A stretch of DNA of 40,773 bases from Gemmatimonadota bacterium (GCA_003223425.1 QHVA01000109.1:1-40773), one strand, 5' to 3'. Positions 3,780 through 22,014 are shown, counted from the first letter of the stretch. Numbers and translations are program-made. The notes: generated by a model not told the origin, from the letters alone.

Positions 3780-6317
3780 ATGAGATCGCCTGACCCCGCA
3801 CTTACCGTTCACAAATTCGGCGGTGCCGCGCTCGCTGACGCCGCGGCCATCCGAAAAGTTACGAGCATCGTCGCCAGCGATGCTACGCCGCAGAAGGTCG
3901 TCGTCGCCTCTGCCATGCTCGGCGTCACCGACGATTTGCTTCAGGTAGCGCGCCAAGCCGCGGCGGGCGGACAAGTGCAGGCAAGACTCGACGGGCTCCG
4001 CGAGCGACACGTGACCGCGGCGCGCTCTCTTGGCATTGACGGTGGTAACCGCACACTGCTGGAAGCGCAGATCGAAAAGACGTTTGACGAGCTCCACCGC
4101 ATGTGCGTGCAGATCGCGACGGCCGGTGAACTGACGTCGGCGATGACCGACGCCTTCGTTGCGGAAGGAGATCGCTCCGCTGCCACGCTACTCGCTGCAG
4201 CACTCACCGCCAGCGGTGTCGTCGCGAAGTTCGTGGAAGCGACTGATGTGGTGCGCGCCGACGGTCCACACGGGAACGCGAGCCCCGACATCGAGCAGAC
4301 GGCGGACGCAGCGGAAACCCTTCTGCGCCCGATCATCCATGGCGGTGTCGTGCCCGTGATCCCCGGGTTCGTCGGCCGCTCGCCTCGGGGCGAAATCGTC
4401 ACCCTTGGGCGCGGTGGCTCCGATCTCACCGCCACTCTGCTCGGCCGCGTGCTGCGCGCGCGCGATGTCATTCTTTGGAAGGATGTCCCCGGCCTGTTGA
4501 CGGCGGATCCCCGCGTCGTTGCCGACGCGCGATTGATTCCCGTGCTCCACGTCCGGGAAGCATCGGAGCTCGCCTACTACGGCGCCAAGGTCTTGCACCC
4601 GCGCTCGTTGATTGCGCTGCAGGCGGGAACGCGGCTGATCATCCGTCCGTACGCCGATCCCGCCGCGCACGGCACAGAGATCGTCGTCGAGCGTGAGAGA
4701 AAGCCGGCGACTGGGCGCGCTCGCCGCCCGGTGAAAGCGCTCACGGCAATCGCCGATCAGACACTGCTGACGATCGCCGGGAACGGCATGGTCGGCGTGC
4801 CGGGAGTTGCGGCGCGTGCGTTCGGTGCACTCGAGCGCGCGGGTGTCTCGGTATCGCTCATCTCGCAGGCGTCGTCGGAGCACTCGATCTGCATGGGAAT
4901 TCCCATGAGCGCAGCGAACGCGGGGGCAGCAGCCTTGCGTGAAGCGTTCGCCACCGAGCTAGCGCGCCGGGAGATCGATGCGATCGAGGTTCGATCCGAC
5001 CTCGCCACTATAGCGGTCGTCGGGCTCGGTATGGCTGGCACGCCGGGCGTCGCGGCGCGGCTATTCGGGGCGCTCGCGGACGAGGGCGTCAACGTGGTGG
5101 CAATCGCCCAGGGCGCGAGCGAGCTGAACATCTCCGTGGTCGTCGAGGGGCGCGATGCCGCCGCGGCGCAGCGCGCGATTCATTCGGCGTTCCGGCTCGG
5201 CAAGATCGGCGGCGGGGCTGCCGTTCACCCGGAGCACGCGGATGTTGTGATCCTCGGCTTCGGTCAGATCGGTCGAGAGCTGGCCACTCAAATTGCGACG
5301 CACTCGTCGCGCGCCGGCGAGCAGGGACAGGCGCGGGTGGTCGCAGTTGTCGATCGCAGCGGCTACGTCTTCGACGCGCGTGGACTGTCGCCGAAGCGAC
5401 TCGAGACACTGACCGCCGCGAAGTCGGCGCGGACGCCACTCTCGAGCGTGCGGCGTGGTGTTCACGCCACGGCGGAGGAAGCGATCGCGGCCATCTCCGC
5501 GCACGCGCTCTCGCGCCCGATTCTCGTCGACGTGACGGCGGGAGACACCGGTGCCGTGCTCGAGGCGGCGCTGTCGCGCGGGATGGATCTGGTTCTGGCG
5601 AACAAGCGGCCGCTCGCTGGGCCGGAAAAGGATGCCCGCACGCTCGCCCATGCTGCCGCATCGCAGGGCCGGCGGGTGTTGCACGAGGCAACGGTCGGCG
5701 CTGGCCTTCCCATCATCGATACGATCCAGAAGCTCACCGAGTCCGGGGATCAGGTGCTGCGCATCGAGGGCTGCCCGTCGGGCACGCTCGGCTACCTCCT
5801 CGGCGAAATGGGACGCGGGACATCTTTCTCAAGCGCTCTCCGCTCGGCGATGAACCACGGCTACACCGAGCCCGACCCGCGCGACGATCTTTCCGGGATG
5901 GATGTCGCGCGCAAAGCGCTCATTCTGGGCCGCCTGATCGGATTCTCGGGCGAGCTCACCGACGTGCAGGTTGAGTCGCTGGTACCCGATGCGTTGCGCG
6001 AGCTTCCGCTCGATGTATTTCTCACCCGCTTGCACGAGGTGGACGAGATGTGGGAGCAGCGCGTGCGCGAGGCGCGGGACCACAAAACCGTGCTCCGCTA
6101 CCGCGCGACCGTAACCAAGCGCGAAGCGCGCGTCGGCATCGTCGCCGTCGATGCGTCGAGCTCACTCGCATCGCTGGCGGGAACCGACAACCATTTCTCG
6201 TTCACCACCAGGCGCTATCGCGCCAACCCGCTGGTGATCACGGGCCCCGGAGCTGGAGCAGAAGTGACCGCGGCCGGCGTGCTCAACGACGTGCTGAAGC
6301 TGGCGGGAACTCGGTGA
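3780..6317 (+). CDS. thrA: Bifunctional aspartate kinase / homoserine dehydrogenase
   Basis: 845 aa; HKFGGAALADAAAIRKV kinase motif, two ACT-like segments (GMVGVPGVAARAFGALERAGVSV; GMAGTPGVAARLFGALADEGVNV), C-terminal homoserine dehydrogenase (ILGFGQIGRELA, EATVGAGLPIIDTIQKL). Confidence 0.95.
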   Translation: MRSPDPALTVHKFGGAALADAAAIRKVTSIVASDATPQKVVVASAMLGVTDDLLQVARQAAAGGQVQARLDGLRERHVTAARSLGIDGGNRTLLEAQIEKTFDELHRMCVQIATAGELTSAMTDAFVAEGDRSAATLLAAALTASGVVAKFVEATDVVRADGPHGNASPDIEQTADAAETLLRPIIHGGVVPVIPGFVGRSPRGEIVTLGRGGSDLTATLLGRVLRARDVILWKDVPGLLTADPRVVADARLIPVLHVREASELAYYGAKVLHPRSLIALQAGTRLIIRPYADPAAHGTEIVVERERKPATGRARRPVKALTAIADQTLLTIAGNGMVGVPGVAARAFGALERAGVSVSLISQASSEHSICMGIPMSAANAGAAALREAFATELARREIDAIEVRSDLATIAVVGLGMAGTPGVAARLFGALADEGVNVVAIAQGASELNISVVVEGRDAAAAQRAIHSAFRLGKIGGGAAVHPEHADVVILGFGQIGRELATQIATHSSRAGEQGQARVVAVVDRSGYVFDARGLSPKRLETLTAAKSARTPLSSVRRGVHATAEEAIAAISAHALSRPILVDVTAGDTGAVLEAALSRGMDLVLANKRPLAGPEKDARTLAHAAASQGRRVLHEATVGAGLPIIDTIQKLTESGDQVLRIEGCPSGTLGYLLGEMGRGTSFSSALRSAMNHGYTEPDPRDDLSGMDVARKALILGRLIGFSGELTDVQVESLVPDALRELPLDVFLTRLHEVDEMWEQRVREARDHKTVLRYRATVTKREARVGIVAVDASSSLASLAGTDNHFSFTTRRYRANPLVITGPGAGAEVTAAGVLNDVLKLAGTR

Positions 6318-11749: not shown

Positions 11750-13210
11750 CTACTTGCTGAGCCTGCTCCGGTACGCCCTCTCGCCCGCCCCGATGTAAAT
11801 CTGCCGCGGCCGGGAGATCTTCTGTTCCTTGTCGAGCAGCATCTCCTCCCACTGCGCCAGCCAGCCCGGCATCCGACCGATCGCGAACAGCACCGTGAAG
11901 AAATCCATCGGAAAGGCCATCGACCGATAAATCAGGCCGGTGTAGAAGTCGACGTTCGGGTAAAGCTTCCGGGAGACGAAATAATCGTCTGCGAGGGCAA
12001 TGCGCTCGAGCTCCAACGCGATCTCCAGATCCTTGTCGACGCCAACCACATTGAAGACTTCATCGGCCAGCTTCTTCACGATCTTGGCGCGCGGATCATA
12101 GCTCTTGTAGACGCGGTGCCCAAAGCCCATCAGCCTGCCGCCCTCACCACTCTTCACGCTCTCAATGAACTTCGGCACGTTCTTCACGGTGCCGATCTCT
12201 TTGATCATGCGGAGCACCTGCTCGTTGGCTCCGCCGTGCAGCGGGCCAAAAAGCGCCGCAACGCCGGCCGATACAGCCGAGAAAGGATCGACATGTGAGG
12301 AACCGACTCCGCGCACGGCGCTCGTCGAGCAGTTCTGTTCATGATCGGCGTGGAGGATGAACAGGATCTCGAGCGCACGCGCGAAAACCGGGTTCGCCTC
12401 GTACTTCGACTCGCTCATGCGAGCGACCATCGACAGAAAATTCTCGACGTACGAGAGGCGATTGTCGGGATAGACGAAGGGCAACCCCTTCACGTGTCGA
12501 TACGAGAACGCAGCTATCGTCGGCGTCTTGGCCAGCAGACGGATGATCGAGATGTTGCGTTCGGTCTCGTCGAAAATGTTGCGCGCCGACGGATAGAACG
12601 ATGCGAGGCCCGCGATCGAGCTATTGAGTATCGCCATCGGATGAGCGTCGTAGCGGAATCCCTCGAGGAACTTGCGCATGTTCTCGTGCACGTAAGTGTG
12701 GAACGTGATGTCGTGCACGAACTGATCGTACTCCTGCTGCGTCGGCAGCTCGCCGTGACGGAGTAGCCAGGCGACCTCCAGAAATGTTGCGTTTTCAGCC
12801 AGCTGCTCGATTGGATATCCGCGATAACGCAGGATTCCCTTGTCGCCATCGATGTATGTGATTGCGCTTCGGCACGACGCAGTGTTCATGAACGCCGGAT
12901 CGTAGCTCATGAGACCCGTATCGTCGGGGTCGTCAGTCTTGATTTTCTTGAGGTCGTTAGCCCGGATCGCGCCTTCGGCGACGGGAATCGAGTAGGTCTT
13001 GCTGGTGCGTGTGTCCTTTATCTCGAGCGCGCTACCTGAGGGGGCGGGGGCAGATGGCTTGGCGGAGTTCCTGAAAGGCGCTGCGGCGGCTGGTTTTGCG
13101 GAGTTCCTGTTAGAGGCTGGAGCGGGTTTGGGGCGGGCGGAACGCGCCGGGGAAGCGGTGTTTTTCTTGGGCGCGGCGGCGGGTGGTGCAGTCGAACCGG
13201 TCTTCGGCAT
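11750..13210 (-). CDS. gltA: Citrate synthase with Ala/Pro/Lys-rich N-terminal extension
   Basis: 486 aa; TYIDGDKGILRYRGYPIEQLAE, LHADHEQNCSTSAVRGVGSSHVDPFSAVSAGVAALFGPLHGGANE, MGFGHRVYKSYDPRA. Confidence 0.96.
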   Translation of the reverse strand: MPKTGSTAPPAAAPKKNTASPARSARPKPAPASNRNSAKPAAAAPFRNSAKPSAPAPSGSALEIKDTRTSKTYSIPVAEGAIRANDLKKIKTDDPDDTGLMSYDPAFMNTASCRSAITYIDGDKGILRYRGYPIEQLAENATFLEVAWLLRHGELPTQQEYDQFVHDITFHTYVHENMRKFLEGFRYDAHPMAILNSSIAGLASFYPSARNIFDETERNISIIRLLAKTPTIAAFSYRHVKGLPFVYPDNRLSYVENFLSMVARMSESKYEANPVFARALEILFILHADHEQNCSTSAVRGVGSSHVDPFSAVSAGVAALFGPLHGGANEQVLRMIKEIGTVKNVPKFIESVKSGEGGRLMGFGHRVYKSYDPRAKIVKKLADEVFNVVGVDKDLEIALELERIALADDYFVSRKLYPNVDFYTGLIYRSMAFPMDFFTVLFAIGRMPGWLAQWEEMLLDKEQKISRPRQIYIGAGERAYRSRLSK

Positions 13211-13762: not shown

Positions 13763-14278
13763 TCAGAGTTTCTTGACTCGCGCGACCCTCCACCTCCCGC
13801 CGGTGACGCTCCGCCCTGGAACAGATGGTACTGTGCTGAAGGTCCCTTCGATCGTGCGAGCATCCCGAAACGTTCCCTGGAACGTCGTCGTGACTGTACA
13901 GTCACAATCAGGATCCTTGTAAGGGTCGAGCGTGCCGCTAAGATTCCCGCCCTCTTTCCTGATAAAATGAATCTTCAGAACGGTGCGCCCGGGCGACGCG
14001 ACGTTGCTCACGAGCTCGCGCTCCTCCGGGGTCAGCAGAGAGTCGGCGCGAGGGATCATCACGACGTTCCCCGACGCTGATGACTCGCCGGCCCGAAGAG
14101 TGAAAGCGATCGTGCCGCGTCTCCCGGTTTGGGCGCTGCTGTAATCACCACGCCACTCGCCGACCAAAGGATTCACATCAAAATCGCTGGAGGTAACTCC
14201 GATTCCGGGAGTCGTGGTGGCACAGGCGATGGTTGCGGCGGCAAGACCTGTCGCGATGATGGACAAGGCGCGTAGCAT
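13763..14278 (-). CDS. Hypothetical lipoprotein
   Basis: Met at 14278 gives MLRALSIIATGLAAATIACATTTPG lipoprotein-like signal; rest unrecognised. Confidence 0.6.
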   Translation of the reverse strand: MLRALSIIATGLAAATIACATTTPGIGVTSSDFDVNPLVGEWRGDYSSAQTGRRGTIAFTLRAGESSASGNVVMIPRADSLLTPEERELVSNVASPGRTVLKIHFIRKEGGNLSGTLDPYKDPDCDCTVTTTFQGTFRDARTIEGTFSTVPSVPGRSVTGGRWRVARVKKL

Positions 14279-14436: not shown

Positions 14437-15867
14437 TTATGTCGCCGTAACCGGTCGGAAACCCTTCCGCTCCATCGCGCCCCACTCCTTTCGGCCGCGC
14501 AGGAATTTCCAGAGTCCGCGCAGTCGCCAATATACCGTCATTTGCCTGTAGCCAAGGTTCTCGACCAGTGCCCACCAGAAAAGCAGTGCGCGATCGCGGA
14601 AAGTCTCGTAACGGTGGAAGCTCAGGTCCTCTAGAATCAGAGTGAAGGCTGTGAGTGCCGTGCCTAGTCCGTACGCCGTGAGATAGAAGAGCAGCGCGAA
14701 ATTCCAATCGATGACACCAAGGATCAGGCCAAGCACAAGGCTGACGAGACCTACCGCCTCGATCACCGGCGCCAGCAATTCGACGAACGCGTAGTATGGA
14801 AATACGAAGAGACCGGTTACACCGTAGCGCGGATTGAACATCATCCGACGATGTCTCCACAACACGTCTGCCAGGCCGCGATGCCAGCGATCACGCTGGC
14901 GCCCGAGAACTCCTGCGGATTCAGGTACCTCGGTCCACGCAACCGGATCTGGGACGAAAGCAATTTTGCCGGGACCTCCCTGCTCATAGGAAAGTCGCTT
15001 CAGCCTTAGCACGAGCTCCATGTCTTCCCCGACAGTGTCGTGCAGGTACCCGCCCGCCTTCAAAACTGCTTCGCGCTGGAATAGTCCGAACGCGCCCGAG
15101 ATGATGATGTTGCCGCCGAGTCTGTTCCAGCCGAGTCTGCCGAAGAGGAACGCGCGGAGATATTCGACTACCTGCACTCCCGCCAGCAAATGCGATGGTA
15201 CTGCGGTCTTTGCTACGCGGCCGTGTGTCACCACCGAGCCGTTGACGACCCGGATCGTGCCACCTGTCGCTACGACGTCTGTCGCGTAGAGGAATGGCCG
15301 CACCATTCGCTGCAGCCCGTCTGCCTCGATCAAAGTGTCTGCGTCCATCGCGCAAACCAGCTCGCCGCGCGCGAAGCTGAGCCCGACGTTCAAAGCGTCG
15401 GCTTTACCACCGTTTTCTTTGTCGACGACGACCAGGGCAGGGTAAGTAGAGGACCGGTAGAGAGAGCGTACCGGTTTGGTCTTGATCCGCTGCTCATAGA
15501 TCGTTTTCACGGGCACGAGATCAAACCGGTCGATGAGCACCTGGATGGTCCTGTCCTTTGATCCGTCGCTGATCACGATCACCTCGAGACTCGGGTAGTG
15601 AAGCGCCAGCAGCGCGCGGAGACTCGTCTCGATCGTAGCTTCTTCATTGAAGGCCGGCGCTAAAATGGAGATAGTCGGCGAGAGCGTGGAGCTTAGCAGC
15701 AGGTGGCGACTCTCGTCAGCAATCAGAAGCATGTGAAGTTTCAGCTCGAGCAGCGAGCTCACGAGCAGAATCAGGTACCAGCCGTTGACGCCGAGAAAAT
15801 ACAAGAGCACGGCAAACTGGCCCTTGGTCAGGATCCCGTTGACGATCGAGGTAAGGAGCTCGTTCAT
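14437..15867 (-). CDS. Processive family 2 glycosyltransferase, membrane protein (PgaC/BcsA-like)
   Basis: 476 aa; SILAPAFNEEATIETSLRALL, CAMDADTLIE, VGEDMELVLRLKR, RQRDRWHRG (QxxRW motif), N- and C-terminal TM segments. Confidence 0.9.
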   Translation of the reverse strand: MNELLTSIVNGILTKGQFAVLLYFLGVNGWYLILLVSSLLELKLHMLLIADESRHLLLSSTLSPTISILAPAFNEEATIETSLRALLALHYPSLEVIVISDGSKDRTIQVLIDRFDLVPVKTIYEQRIKTKPVRSLYRSSTYPALVVVDKENGGKADALNVGLSFARGELVCAMDADTLIEADGLQRMVRPFLYATDVVATGGTIRVVNGSVVTHGRVAKTAVPSHLLAGVQVVEYLRAFLFGRLGWNRLGGNIIISGAFGLFQREAVLKAGGYLHDTVGEDMELVLRLKRLSYEQGGPGKIAFVPDPVAWTEVPESAGVLGRQRDRWHRGLADVLWRHRRMMFNPRYGVTGLFVFPYYAFVELLAPVIEAVGLVSLVLGLILGVIDWNFALLFYLTAYGLGTALTAFTLILEDLSFHRYETFRDRALLFWWALVENLGYRQMTVYWRLRGLWKFLRGRKEWGAMERKGFRPVTAT

Positions 15868-16907
15868 CCTGTTGCCGTCGCCGGTAGATCCAGAACCTGC
15901 TGCGCCATGTCGGCCGCGAAGCGATCGTCGCCCTTGGTCGCGCGCCGCAAAAACAAAATCCCCGGAGCGCCGATCGCTCGGAGCGCGAGCCCTGCCTCCT
16001 TGCGAACGCGCCAGGCCGAGTCACGGAGACGCGCGGCCAGCTGCGATCCTGCCTGCCAGTACTGCATCCGTCCAAGCGACTTGGCGGCAGTGGCTCTCAC
16101 TCGCGATTCGTCGTCGGACAACAGTTGCATCAATCGTTCGGCAGCGGCGGCGTCGGCCACAGCGCCCAACAAGTTCGCGGCTGCGACTCGGACATCCACA
16201 TCCTCGGCGCGGGAATGACGCAGCGCCGGCGGACCGAAACTCGCCTCCGCCAATGACTCCGCGACGCGCAGACCCGCCTCCGCAGCGCGACCGGAATGAG
16301 TTTCCAGAAACTCAGCAAGTGGTCCGGCGACGAGCCCGCCCATGCGCAAGAGCGCGTTCTGAACCGCAAACCGAGCCTGAGTCGCTGGATCCGCGAGCAG
16401 GACGAGCATCGCGGAGATCACCGCCGCTGACGGTTGAGCGGCGGCCCATTCCGCTGCTTGCGCTCGAACGGCGGGATGCGGATCGGCGAGGAGTTTCTGC
16501 ACCAACGGATCGGCTGCGTCCAGGCGCGAGAGAATGCGGGCGCCACGCAGCCGGCGCGTCCAGCGTCCGCTCTCGCACAGCTTCCTGGCGCGGTCCACCA
16601 AACCAACTTGCTGGGCGACGAAGCGCAGTCTCTCCTTGCCCGTTCCGGTCACGGTCTGCGAGATCTCGAGAAACGCAACCACCTGTACGTCGTTGGGCAG
16701 TTCGCGCAGAGCCTGGATCTCTTCGACGTTTACCAAACCGCGCGTGACGAGACGGGCCAGTGATTCGCGCGCTACCGTGGTTAGTCGGTGCAGCCGCCTG
16801 TCAGCAAAAAAGAGCCAGAGGCCGTGCAAAAAGAACAGGCCAACGGCGAGCACCAAGAGCCCGATCTCGATCAGCATCACGATGGTGAGAAGATTCTCGC
16901 TTACCAT
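15864..16907 (-). CDS. Membrane-anchored HEAT-repeat protein
   Basis: 347 aa; N-terminal TM (LLTIVMLIEIGLLVLAVGLFFLHGLWLFF), repeated HEAT-like helices (DPHPAVRAQAAEWAA, DVDVRVAAANLLGAV, DDESRVRATAAKSLGRM); 4-nt overlap with the GT2 gene. Confidence 0.85.
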   Translation of the reverse strand: MVSENLLTIVMLIEIGLLVLAVGLFFLHGLWLFFADRRLHRLTTVARESLARLVTRGLVNVEEIQALRELPNDVQVVAFLEISQTVTGTGKERLRFVAQQVGLVDRARKLCESGRWTRRLRGARILSRLDAADPLVQKLLADPHPAVRAQAAEWAAAQPSAAVISAMLVLLADPATQARFAVQNALLRMGGLVAGPLAEFLETHSGRAAEAGLRVAESLAEASFGPPALRHSRAEDVDVRVAAANLLGAVADAAAAERLMQLLSDDESRVRATAAKSLGRMQYWQAGSQLAARLRDSAWRVRKEAGLALRAIGAPGILFLRRATKGDDRFAADMAQQVLDLPATATG

Positions 16908-18991
16908 GCCTGACCCTGCTTGAGCACTGTCCGCACTTTGTGCATGAGCACCGGAACGCTGAATGGTTTCGCGATGTGGTCGGTCGCGCCCAGCTCGAGT
17001 GCGGCGAGCACGTCGCGCTCGCCGGTACGGGACGTCAGCATCACGACGCTGCTCAATCGTGTTATTTCGCCCGCCTTGAGTCTGCGCAGCACTTCGAGCC
17101 CGTTGAGCGCGGGAATGTCGACGCCCAGCAGGATGACGGATGCCTGAATCTCGGGAGAGGCGCCGGTGAGCGCAGCAGCCGCGGTCTCTCCGTCAGCGAA
17201 TGTCGCGACACGAAGGCTGCGCGTCTCCATTGCGTGTTGCAGCAGCGCGACGAGAGCCGCATCGCCCTCGACAATCGCTACGTCGACGCGACGTGTCATC
17301 GGTCCCATCGCTTTCACGCCTGAGACTCCAACGCGGTTCGCGCCGCCGGTCTCTCTCACCTTCTCCAGCGCCTTTAATGCTTCATCTCGCAGCGCGGGGA
17401 TGCTGTCTCCATCGGTTTGGTACTGGGCCACTCCGGCGGAGCATGCTACGTGTACCCGCCGGCCATCGTCGGCGAGGAAATTAAGCTCGGCGATTTTGGC
17501 GCAGATCTGGCCGAGCTTGATCGCAGCGTGTTCCTTGGTGCTTCCGTACATACCGATCGTAAACTCGGCGCCGCTCCACCAGCCGGGAACATCCTCGGCG
17601 CGAAAAGATTTGGGCAGTAGCTCTCCGATCGCGCGCAGCACCGCGTTGGCTGCGCCGCGACCGAAAGTCGTTACAAGGTTCGCGAACGCATCCACCTGCA
17701 ACACAGCTATCGAGTAGGGATCGGACTTTCGGCGGGCCAATCTGAGAAAGCGGTCGATGAGCTCCGTGGCTTTGCCAGCAACGGGTAACCCCGTGAGCGG
17801 GTCGGTCTCGACCGGCGCGCGCCGGGCTTTGACTCCGGTGAGCCGACTTTCGATACGCATGGTCAGCTCGGCGGGCACGAAAGGCTTTCCGACGTAATCG
17901 TCGGCACCAGCCGCGAAGATGCGTTGCACGCTTGCCTGGTCGGTGTGACCCGTGAGAAAGATCACCGGCAGCTCGCTCCAGCGCCGATCATTTCTTAGTG
18001 CCCGACAGAGCTCAGTGCCACTGAGCCTGGGCATCTCGAGATCGAGCAGAATCAGGTTCGGCTTGGTCTCCTCCACCGTGCTCCAGAAACGAAGGGGATC
18101 GTTGAGCGCCGTAACCGCCATCTGACGTCGCGCGAGGAGAGAGGTCAGACCGCGCGAAACCAATGGCTCGTCGTCGACAAGGAGAATTCGGCGTGCCTCG
18201 AGTTGCGATTCATCGAGTGATGTCGCGGCCTCTGGTGGTGTTTGGCTGGCCTGTGACGTAGCAGGCGGCTTGGACGCAGAAGGGGGAGTCGGAGGTCCCA
18301 GCAGATTCTGTCGGAGAGCGAGAAGGTCTTCGGAAATCGAGACGCCATCGACCGGGCTGAGCGACAGGCTGGCAAATCGCTCTGCCAAATCCTTAGCGGT
18401 TCGGGCCGCCTTGTCGAACCCGAATCTGCCCGCCACTTCCGCAACGTTCTGTGCGTCTCGCTCGGCTGCAGCTTTCAACTCCGCTGAGAGGTTGTTGTCG
18501 AGGAGGGCAATCGCCGCGTCGTCGAGCTTGTCGATCTTCTGAAAAGTCGAGGGACGAGCACGTTCCCACGCCTCGAACACCGCAGCGGCTATGTGCTCGC
18601 CATGCGATTCATGAGGGGCCAGGACCTCGACGCGAGACATCTTCGCGAGCTCGAGCAGCATCTCTTCCTTGTCGATCGGTGTGAGAAAGAACCGGTCGAT
18701 CTGGATATCCTTGACTGCCCGCAATCCATTTTCCGCCTGCTGCATCGACATGCAGTAGGCAACCTTCATCTCGTCGCTCGCGTCCTTCGCGCGACGCGCG
18801 ATGTAGATCGTTTCTTCGGTTGGGAGGGCATCGCTAAGGATTACCAGGCGAGCTTCGCCATGCGCGGCGGCTCGTCCTATCTGTTGCGCGTTCTCGAAGC
18901 TGCTGATGTCGACGCCACGAAGCCTCAGTCCGATCTCGCGGACCAGTTCCGCGGGTAACCCCGCCACCAGGAGTTTGACGGGCTGCGTCAT
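16901..18991 (-). CDS. Multi-domain response regulator: pseudo-REC / HPt-like / REC / degenerate GGDEF / pseudo-REC
   Basis: 696 aa; RRILLVDDEPLVSRGL...LILLDLEMPRLSG (intact REC); DPLTGLP...RAEDVPGWWSGAEF (degenerate GGDEF with RxxD); C-terminal REC with LLGVDIPALNG (Asp replaced by Gly). Confidence 0.88.
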   Translation of the reverse strand: MTQPVKLLVAGLPAELVREIGLRLRGVDISSFENAQQIGRAAAHGEARLVILSDALPTEETIYIARRAKDASDEMKVAYCMSMQQAENGLRAVKDIQIDRFFLTPIDKEEMLLELAKMSRVEVLAPHESHGEHIAAAVFEAWERARPSTFQKIDKLDDAAIALLDNNLSAELKAAAERDAQNVAEVAGRFGFDKAARTAKDLAERFASLSLSPVDGVSISEDLLALRQNLLGPPTPPSASKPPATSQASQTPPEAATSLDESQLEARRILLVDDEPLVSRGLTSLLARRQMAVTALNDPLRFWSTVEETKPNLILLDLEMPRLSGTELCRALRNDRRWSELPVIFLTGHTDQASVQRIFAAGADDYVGKPFVPAELTMRIESRLTGVKARRAPVETDPLTGLPVAGKATELIDRFLRLARRKSDPYSIAVLQVDAFANLVTTFGRGAANAVLRAIGELLPKSFRAEDVPGWWSGAEFTIGMYGSTKEHAAIKLGQICAKIAELNFLADDGRRVHVACSAGVAQYQTDGDSIPALRDEALKALEKVRETGGANRVGVSGVKAMGPMTRRVDVAIVEGDAALVALLQHAMETRSLRVATFADGETAAAALTGASPEIQASVILLGVDIPALNGLEVLRRLKAGEITRLSSVVMLTSRTGERDVLAALELGATDHIAKPFSVPVLMHKVRTVLKQGQAW

Positions 18992-19054: not shown

Positions 19055-19570
19055 TCAGCCGGTGGTCTGTTTTGCCAGCCTCAGAACCGCGTTCCACTCC
19101 GCTCCGCCGACCTTCTGAACCGACAGGCGGTTCCCCCTCTGGAGGAGCGGCATGCCCTCCAACTCGGGCTTGGTCCTCATCTCACTCAGAGTCACGGGGC
19201 GAGGCAGGCGCTCGATGGCCTTGATATCGACCATGGACCAGGGCGTTTCCCCGCCCTTGCTGCGCGGATCGTGGTGTGGATCCTTGGGATCGAGCGCGGT
19301 GTGATCCGGATATCCCTCTCGCACGATCTCGACGATGCCGTGGATTCCGGGGTCGGGTTCCCCGGAGTGATAGAAGAAAGCGAGGTCGCCTTTCTTCATT
19401 TCGTCCCGCATGTAGTTCCGCGCCTGAAAATTCCGCACACCATCCCAGTGAGTAGTGCGATTGGGCGAGCTCCAGAGAGCGTCGAAGGAAAACGAATCCG
19501 GATCCGACTTGAGAAGCCAGTACTGCCGGTGCTCGTACGCGGGACGACTTGTGTTGACCATTCGATTCAC
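19055..19570 (-). CDS. EVE domain-containing protein
   Basis: 171 aa; QYWLLKSDPDSFSFDALW, THWDGVRNFQARNYMRDEMKKGDLAFFYHSG. Confidence 0.92.
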   Translation of the reverse strand: MNRMVNTSRPAYEHRQYWLLKSDPDSFSFDALWSSPNRTTHWDGVRNFQARNYMRDEMKKGDLAFFYHSGEPDPGIHGIVEIVREGYPDHTALDPKDPHHDPRSKGGETPWSMVDIKAIERLPRPVTLSEMRTKPELEGMPLLQRGNRLSVQKVGGAEWNAVLRLAKQTTG

Positions 19571-19674: not shown

Positions 19675-22014
19675 ATGTCTCGTCCTTCCTCCCGCACGTT
19701 CTCGCGGTCGAACTCGCGCGCGTTCACTTTGAGATCCCCGCTCGTCTCGCTGCTGGTTTTCGCTGCCGGCACGCTCAGCGCGCAGTCGACAGCCACTCCC
19801 CGGCTAACTTACCCTGCAGCAGCGCGGGGCACGCAGGTCGACGATTATCATGGCACCAGCATCGCCGATCCATACCGCTGGCTCGAGGATGTGGACGCGC
19901 CTGCCACGAAAGCGTGGGTAGAGGCGGAGAACAAGCTGACGGACTCCTTCCTCGCGACGATTCCCGAGCGACCGGCAATCAAGAACCGACTCACTCAGCT
20001 TTGGAATTACGCGCGCTATTCTGCGCCGTCCAAGGAGAACGGACGCTACTTCTATTTCCAGAACACCGGGCTTCAGAATCAGAGCGTGCTGTACGTGCAG
20101 GACGGGCTGGACGCCAGTCCCCGTGTGCTGCTCGATCCGAATACTCTCTCACCTGACGGAACCATTGCGCTCTCGGGCACGGCCGCATCTGATGACGGAC
20201 GCTATTTGGCGTACAGCCTCTCGACGAGCGGATCCGACTGGCAAGAGCTACACGTGCGCGACGTCAGAAGCGCGCGCGACCTGCCCGACACGGTGAAGTG
20301 GGTCAAGTTCTCCGGCATCACGTGGACGCAGGACAACAAAGGCTTTTTCTACTCGCGGTACGACGAGCCGACGTCGGGTAACAAGATGACCAACACCAAC
20401 CGCTTTCATAAGCTCTACTACCATAGGGTTGGGCAGTCGCAGTCACGCGACGAGCTGGTCTATGATCGCCCGGACCAGCCCGACTGGCTGTTCAACGGCA
20501 ACGTCACCGATGATGGCCAGTATCTGATCATCACGGTCTCCCAGGGGACCGATGTCCGGAGGCGTATCTACTTCATCGATCTCGACAACCCGGGCAAGCC
20601 ACAGATCGACAACCCCGTGGTCAGACTGATCGACAAGCTGGACGCCGAATATTCTTTCGTTGGCAACAGGGGCACGATGTTCTACGTGCGTACCGACCGG
20701 AACGCACCGAAAGGCCGCATCGTAGCGATAAACATCGACAACCCCCGCGAAGAGCGCTGGAACACGATCATTCCCGAGAGCAAGGATGCTCTTGTTGATG
20801 CGACGACGGCTGGCGACGACATCGTCGCCAACTATCTGCAGGATGCGCATTCGAGCGTGCGTTTCTTCAGCGGCGCACGGGGGGACGACCGACGCGAGCA
20901 GCGTCCGCGCGGACAGCAGCCGCAACAGCCACCGCGCAATCCCGGCAACATTTACGATGACACTAGCACCGCTCCGATCGTAACGCGCGACCGGGGGCAA
21001 CAGCTCGGTGGGGGATTCACGCTGCGCGGAGAGCTGCCGCTGCCGGCGGTCGGAACGGTGGGCGAAATCCACGGGCGTCAGGGCGACAACGAAATGTTCT
21101 ACAGCTTTACGTCGTTCCTCTATCCAACCACGATCTACCGCTACGACGTCAAGTCGCGCAGCAACGACGTGTTCAGAGCGCCGCCGGTCGCGTTCGATGC
21201 AGCTGCATAGGAAACCCGACAGGTCTTCTACACGAGCAAAGATGGAACGCGGGTTCCGATGTTCATCACCGCGAAAAAGGGCATCCAGCTCGACGGAAGC
21301 AACCCAACGCTGCTCTACGCCTACGGCGGCTTCAACATTTCTATGACTCCAACGTTCTCCGCCGCCAACATTGACTGGATGGAGATGGGCGGAATCTATG
21401 CGCTCGCGAATCTCAGAGGCGGCGGCGAATACGGAAAGGACTGGCACGAGGGCGGCATGCTGGCGAAGAAGCAGAACGTGTTCGACGATTTCATCGCCGC
21501 CGCTGAATACCTGGTCAAGGAGAAGTACACGTCGACTCCCAAGCTCGCCATCCGCGGCGGCTCGAACGGCGGACTGCTGATTGGCGCAGTGATGAATCAG
21601 CGGCCCGATCTATTCGGCGCCGCGCTTCCCGAGGTCGGCGTGATGGACATGCTGCGCTTCCAGAAGTTCACAATTGGCTGGGCGTGGACTTCGGACTACG
21701 GCTCATCGGAGAATCCGGACCAGTTCAAATACCTGCGAGCGTATTCACCCCTTCACAACATCAAACCCGGAACCTGTTATCCACCTACGCTTGCTTTTAC
21801 TGCCGATCACGACGATCGCGTCGTTCCCGGGCACACCTTCAAGTACGTGGCGACGCTCCAGGCGGCTGAGAGCTGTGCCAATCCGGTTCTGGTGAGGATC
21901 GAGACGAAGGCTGGGCACGGCGCGGGCAAACCGACGAGCAAGCTGATCGACGAAGCAGCGGATAGATTTGCATTCCTCGTGAAGGAGCTGCACATGAGAC
22001 CCACGCTCCGGTAG
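19675..22014 (+). pseudogene. Prolyl oligopeptidase (S9A family) interrupted by in-frame TAG at 21208-21210
   Basis: 19675-21210 encodes signal peptide plus propeller (DPYRWLEDVDAPATKAWVEAEN, YSFTSFLYPTTIYRYD); 21211-22014 continues in the same frame as [20 protein letters not shown]...GGSNGGLL...DHDDRV...GHGAG. Confidence 0.9.

Follow-up and report, generated by a model that had tools for sequence, protein, structure and literature searches.

Synthase-dependent exopolysaccharides are classed by the route along which a signal reaches the synthase: PilZ, MshEN, PelD, or PgaC/D. The question raised here is by which route a signal could reach the glycosyltransferase encoded in a 40,773-nucleotide (nt) stretch of DNA from a Gemmatimonadota bacterium (GCA_003223425.1 QHVA01000109.1:1-40773), referred to below as the window, which is contig C221 of a 2.52-Mb assembly that is 86% complete and, judged by its relatives, a Gemmatimonadaceae genome. 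Three genes on its reverse strand encode a regulator of 696 amino acids (aa) (16901 to 18991), a HEAT-repeat protein of 347 aa (15864 to 16907), and a processive-type GT2 synthase of 476 aa (14437 to 15867). We present evidence that these genes form a signal-gated, synthase-dependent polysaccharide module and that, in the genus of the window, the regulator is a sensor of cyclic di-GMP (c-di-GMP) acting through the HEAT protein on the GT2, a reading to which we assign a probability of roughly 55%. Comparative genomics gives good support to the gene set as a signal-gated synthase module, and within the genus, gating by c-di-GMP looks plausible.

Gene order and conservation of the module

The three open reading frames (ORFs) coincide exactly with those of the first-pass annotation, which had described overlaps of 4 to 7 nt. 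The regulator and HEAT genes share 7 nt (ATGGTAA), and the HEAT and GT2 genes share 4 nt (ATGA); these overlaps indicate translational coupling of all three genes and count in favor of a module. A scan for promoters and terminators gave no signal above shuffled sequences.

Relatives were collected by scanning 84,980 species genomes with GT2-only patterns, which yielded over 500, 80 loci being retained, and by a plasmid search with the GT2 query, which returned 14 records. Genes in the loci were found with a conservation-weighted caller; a length-based caller missed HEAT genes lying behind antisense ORFs. Among the loci with enough sequence, 74 of 75 encode a HEAT protein of the same family directly upstream of the GT2, and among the 70 with longer upstream sequence, a receiver (REC) domain is encoded in 64 and a GGDEF domain in 33; the counts are not independent, some of the loci being closely related. 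Because the loci were chosen by GT2 alone, the HEAT-GT2 pairing is beyond chance. Conservation of the triplet had been set beforehand as the survey that could refute the proposed operon, and the proposal survived it. The GT2 family is a separate, tightly conserved one that goes with HEAT.

The same gene pair or triplet is present in nine other genomes of the genus. Defined as a HEAT protein with an N-terminal transmembrane segment encoded directly upstream of a GT2 of this family, with a receiver domain upstream, the module includes the window and occurs in about ten phyla, one haloarchaeon among them (Gemmatimonadota, Actinomycetota, Neomarinimicrobiota, Balneolota, Myxococcota, Cloacimonadota, Deinococcota, Alphaproteobacteria, Bacteroidota, and haloarchaea). 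Examples are found in Deinococcus, Erythrobacter, Mesorhizobium, Haloarcula, and Emticicia, the middle gene of the last being a weak match to the HEAT profile. HEAT relatives were detected in 82 of 295 sampled Gemmatimonadota genomes (E ≤ 1e-20, partial repeats included) and in 55 of 397 sampled Actinomycetota genomes (E ≤ 1e-30). A tblastn search of plasmids with the HEAT protein as the query gave no match because the protein is too divergent. The Haloarcula, Arthrobacter, and many Gemmatimonadota versions contain no GGDEF domain. A Haloarcula halophila plasmid (L173) carries an archaeal REC-HEAT-GT2 set without GGDEF, flanked by two sensor histidine kinases. On Mesorhizobium plasmid pMESCI01 (L172), a stand-alone HPt protein (5737 to 6021) lies just downstream of HEAT-GT2, and two receivers and an ATP-binding protein lie upstream, constituting a phosphorelay split among genes.

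The GT2 matches Pfam Glyco_tranf_2_3 (2.4e-21). The processive motifs noticed in the first-pass annotation were located in a cross-genus alignment: DAD (D175-D177; 15337 to 15345) occupies invariant columns, as do E281 and D282 of the GED motif (residues 280 to 282; 15022 to 15030) and Q324, R325, R327, and W328 of QRDRW, the QxxRW motif (residues 324 to 328; 14884 to 14898). Hydrophobic segments are located at both the N and C termini. The general signature of processive GT2 enzymes (D,D,D..QxxRW plus transmembrane segments) is present, and the combination of motifs and terminal membrane segments is, judged from sequence, the layout of processive synthases.

Three named families were tried and rejected for this enzyme. 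The best NCBIfam model is PgaC_IcaA at 132 bits, and a PgaC/IcaA poly-N-acetylglucosamine (PNAG) synthase is rejected at 132.1 bits against a cut-off of 422.3 (TIGR03937). A CelA/BcsA cellulose synthase is rejected at 50.5 bits against 699.1 (TIGR03030), with no PilZ domain, and NfrB is rejected since Pfam finds no MshEN domain in the GT2 or its partner proteins. The comparison with Pel and PNAG synthases offered earlier is therefore retained for the mode of control and dropped for family membership.

In a quick GT2 tree, the window-type enzyme falls in a strongly supported clade in which Actinomycetota predominate and which is distinct from the main Gemmatimonadota clade, and one genome of the same genus (G001) has both GT2 types; together, these suggest an old transfer between phyla or an old duplication. 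G001 carries two HEAT-GT2 operons (L018/L059 and L032/L048), one of the window type and one near the other Gemmatimonadota type. A contig in a metagenome-assembled genome titled Nitrospira sp. (L055) encodes a HEAT-GT2 pair about 85% identical to that of the window and is probably a mis-binned Gemmatimonadaceae contig.

The HEAT protein matches Pfam HEAT_2 (8.4e-19) and HEAT. Its single strong hydrophobic segment (residues 1 to 37; 16797 to 16907) is followed by arginines, and the AlphaFold2 (AF2) model (mean pLDDT, 93.5) consists of a long N-terminal helix continuing into an alpha solenoid, with HEAT/alphaRep proteins as the nearest structures; the membrane anchor proposed for this protein was thus recovered by both routes. 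Since an Arg-rich stretch follows the hydrophobic segment, the solenoid is predicted by the positive-inside rule to be cytoplasmic.

The degenerate GGDEF domain of the regulator

Pfam identifies two Response_reg stretches (1.4e-48) and a GGDEF domain (2.1e-18) in the regulator, the latter unnamed in the first-pass annotation. The AF2 model contains five folded domains (mean pLDDT, 85), the top Foldseek match is PleD, and hydrophobicity is limited to one marginal stretch inside the core of the C-terminal REC. From the N terminus, the domains are a receiver-like fold with the AF2 beta/alpha pattern and no Pfam Response_reg match, here called a pseudo-REC (residues 1 to 119; 18635 to 18991); an HPt-like helical bundle (residues 126 to 230; 18302 to 18616), supported by AF2 and by a match (E = 1.4e-10) to a profile built from relatives whose HPt histidine is preserved; a middle REC (residues 266 to 388; 17828 to 18196) with an intact Asp pocket (Asp317, Thr347, and Lys369, invariant in genus members); the degenerate GGDEF domain (residues 393 to 556; 17324 to 17815); and a C-terminal REC (residues 566 to 695; 16907 to 17296). 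The HPt-like bundle has the fold and profile of a phosphotransfer domain and lacks its phospho-acceptor His, which is Gln181 in the window and Q, L, M, or R across seven aligned genus members. The phospho-acceptor Asp of the C-terminal REC is replaced by Gly623, and Gly is found there in 5 of 8 genus members.

The GGDEF domain was compared with that of PleD, for which c-di-GMP-bound structures exist (1w25); the alignment sets window RAEDVPGWWSGAEF against PleD RAIDLPCRYGGEEF. In place of GG[DE]EF, the window has SGAEF (residues 473 to 477; 17561 to 17575). All 8 species of the window clade within the genus have Ala or Pro in place of E370, Gln or Glu in place of the metal ligand D327, and a changed residue where PleD has N335. 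The RxxD motif of the I-site (R464-A-E-D467; 17591 to 17602), which aligns with PleD R359/D362 and is the predicted c-di-GMP binding site, is kept in all 8 species, with synonymous variation in the Arg and Asp codons. Catalytic GG[DE]EF and the metal-binding Asp, which mark an active diguanylate cyclase, are both missing. Three features of dead-GGDEF receptors of the PelD/YdaK type are found instead: a destroyed GG[DE]EF, an RxxD five residues ahead of the active-site motif, and a gene encoded with a polysaccharide synthase, here in an overlapping operon with the GT2.

Over all triplets having one, 46 GGDEF domains were compared, of which 26 are canonical and 20 degenerate. With the window clade collapsed to one, 13 degenerate versions remain; these retain the I-site Arg in 11 and the Asp in 12, the D327 equivalent in 2, and the E370 equivalent in none. 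A column-by-column retention table served as an internal control; few conserved columns of the domain are kept as well as the I-site positions. If regain is excluded, the degenerate versions fall into ten separate groups on the quick GT2 tree (about 10 catalytic losses), and 9 of the 10 still contain RxxD members; with gains and losses treated symmetrically, at least six changes are needed, and support is weak for many branches.

The classical role of the I-site is product inhibition, so its survival in a dead enzyme points to a role as a sensor. In the genus of the window, the GGDEF domain resembles a defunct c-di-GMP-producing enzyme retained to sense c-di-GMP, and the loss of catalytic residues together with the kept RxxD makes PelD/YdaK-like gating plausible. 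The cell itself can make the ligand: of ten GGDEF matches in its assembly, four or more have canonical GG[DE]EF, so that canonical cyclases are encoded elsewhere in the genome. As had been noted for the operon, PilZ is absent by Pfam from the three proteins, and none was found in the whole 86%-complete assembly.

Several observations weigh against this interpretation. The secondary I-site Arg (PleD R390/PelD R402), a further feature of dead-GGDEF receptors, is Gln in 8 of 8 clade species and is variable across the whole set (R in 15 of 46). The equivalent of PelD R402 is needed for binding in Bacillus PelD (PMC7112168). Because of this substitution, the affinity of the regulator for c-di-GMP may be weak or absent. 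The exact window-type regulator is carried by only 8 related species, and since their full-length regulators are 67 to 79% identical to that of the window, retention of the I-site may partly reflect shared ancestry. No YaiO exporter was found in the 86%-complete assembly. Finally, many versions have no GGDEF domain, so c-di-GMP cannot be the general trigger of the module. The c-di-GMP gating suggested in the first-pass annotation is accordingly likely for the genus, with its dead GGDEF, kept RxxD, and canonical cyclases, and fails as a module-wide signal.

Proposed mechanism and alternatives

Under the reading that we prefer, the GT2 would be a processive glycosyltransferase of the inner membrane, making a polymer, presumably a polysaccharide, and extruding it. 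The HEAT protein would serve as a membrane-tethered adaptor, its cytoplasmic solenoid contacting both partners and so linking synthase to regulator. The widely conserved input would be the receiver domain of the regulator, which on present gene content is the common input of the module. In the window's genus, the dead GGDEF would bind c-di-GMP at the RxxD I-site and no longer make it; binding, to which phosphorylation of the intact middle REC may add, would alter the contact between regulator and HEAT protein and thereby switch the GT2, presumably toward activation.

The input probably differs between lineages. The triplet often has hybrid histidine kinases and single receiver proteins as neighbors, and an HPt with its His is retained in most other lineages. 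Phosphorylation is the probable input in the majority of lineages, where a kinase is often encoded close by, and certain regulators are canonical cyclases as well: canonical GGEEF proteins with RxxD occupy the regulator slot elsewhere, for example, Actinomycetota proteins of about 320 aa adjoining HEAT-GT2. In L059, from the same genus, the HPt histidine and a neighboring kinase are both present, whereas the window's own type has neither; c-di-GMP on the dead GGDEF is favored as the trigger in the window's genus. In several diderms, the module is accompanied by a TPR/YaiO outer-membrane protein, which fits the expected export of a polymer.

Control might instead run by phosphorylation alone, from a kinase through REC and HEAT to the GT2, with the window's GGDEF as a decaying, ligand-free leftover. 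Such a scheme would accommodate the receiver common to 64 of 70 loci, the haloarchaeal REC-HEAT-GT2 set without GGDEF, the kinases, single RECs, and HPt His of other lineages, the intact middle REC of the window clade, and the absent secondary I-site Arg. We nevertheless consider it rather unlikely, as decay in the clade affects the phosphorelay (the HPt His is lost, as is the C-terminal REC Asp in 5 of 8 species) and leaves the I-site unchanged. Most catalytically dead lineages repeat this retention, and mean identity within the clade is 0.75 for the GGDEF domain, close to the 0.78 of the intact middle REC and unlike that of a drifting remnant. It is very improbable that the regulator has remained a diguanylate cyclase whose atypical active site gives a local supply of c-di-GMP. 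Canonical cyclases do occupy the same slot in other triplets, and cyclase activity is possible in AGDEF and SGDEF proteins (PMC3974145), but these exceptions vary at position 1 of the motif, whereas the window clade is changed at position 3 (Ala/Pro) and has also lost the metal-ligand Asp and the N335 equivalent in 8 of 8 species.

A different objection concerns the GT2, which could be a single-sugar transferase to lipid or protein, with HEAT as a scaffold unrelated to gating. The processive layout of the motifs and the N- and C-terminal membrane segments argues against this, as do the YaiO/TPR exporters paired with the module in several diderms; the score far under the cut-off of the best named synthase model (PgaC) and the lack of a YaiO match in the search of the own genome speak for it. 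On balance, we regard it as improbable, and a c-di-GMP-sensing regulator acting through HEAT on a polysaccharide synthase remains the preferred reading.

Dead GGDEF domains with a live I-site controlling a synthase have experimental precedent in PelD (PMC7112168) and YdaK (PMC7064775). By mode of working, the nearest systems would be YdaK/YdaM, PelD, and NfrB/DgcJ. The Bacillus subtilis ydaJKLMN operon resembles the window in encoding a degenerate GGDEF protein with an intact RxxD in a putative exopolysaccharide synthase operon; the YdaK receptor acts post-translationally, and YdaM and YdaN are synthase components (PMC7064775). YdaK is a membrane protein with four transmembrane segments, whereas the window regulator is soluble, PleD-like, and multi-REC. 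To our knowledge, YdaK lacks REC domains and the yda operon lacks a HEAT adaptor. In Pseudomonas aeruginosa and in Gram-positive Pel systems (PMC7112168), the dead GGDEF of PelD reads c-di-GMP at its I-site and gates polysaccharide synthesis, as proposed here, and PelD relatives can lose the GGDEF (streptococcal PelD), as happens in the module. PelD differs in having transmembrane segments, GAF, and the secondary Arg, and the Pel gene set is different, without a HEAT protein. Escherichia coli NfrB/NfrA with DgcJ (PMC8669469) is a membrane glycosyltransferase under local c-di-GMP control with an outer-membrane partner, in some species with a cyclase gene alongside, as in some triplets; NfrB has its own MshEN c-di-GMP domain, and its system has neither a HEAT protein nor a receiver protein. 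PleD-type response regulators, the best structural match, share the REC-GGDEF fold and I-site with the window regulator, in which the active site is destroyed and an HPt-like domain and C-terminal REC are added. PgaC/IcaA and other processive GT2 synthases have catalytic motifs and membrane layout in common with the window GT2.

No description of the receiver-HEAT-GT2 triplet was found in the literature searched; as this comprised openly licensed papers only, the absence is weak evidence. We tentatively propose that the module may be an undescribed, widespread switch of bacteria and haloarchaea, running from receiver to membrane-anchored HEAT adaptor to GT2, into which GGDEF domains were recruited as local cyclases and, some ten separate times, turned into c-di-GMP sensors as catalysis was lost and the I-site kept; the window's genus would have gone furthest, its phosphorelay residues also being lost. 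If true, the signal routes to a synthase would gain another, very widespread one, in which a receiver protein feeds a HEAT adaptor and which is present in phyla with poorly known surface polymers (Gemmatimonadota, Actinomycetota, and haloarchaea). The triplet set would also be a natural series of GGDEF enzyme-to-sensor conversions inside one conserved operon, making the evolution of c-di-GMP effectors directly testable.

Neighboring genes

Downstream of the GT2 on the reverse strand, a small gene (13763 to 14278) encodes a lipoprotein-like product with lipobox TIAC and no Pfam match. It adjoins the GT2 in genus members, with none seen outside the genus (cluster c12), and is a possible accessory part of the module. 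In Neomarinimicrobiota and Myxococcota, a family of 388- to 398-aa proteins without a Pfam match (c6; L106, 7431 to 8627, and L094, 7326 to 8492) follows the GT2 and is a possible polymer-modifying or export partner. The gene for an EVE-domain protein (19055 to 19570, reverse strand) precedes that of the regulator by 63 nt, a position conserved in the genus (cluster c14). The citrate synthase encoded at 11750 to 13210 (reverse strand) has a long N-terminal extension rich in Pro, Ala, and Lys. On the forward strand, ORFs at 19675 to 21210 and 21259 to 22014, in different frames, resemble two pieces, N- and C-terminal, of a single prolyl-oligopeptidase-like protein; the gene appears broken or mis-assembled, and two genus relatives (L038 and L039) have a single ORF of 783 to 794 aa near the corresponding place.

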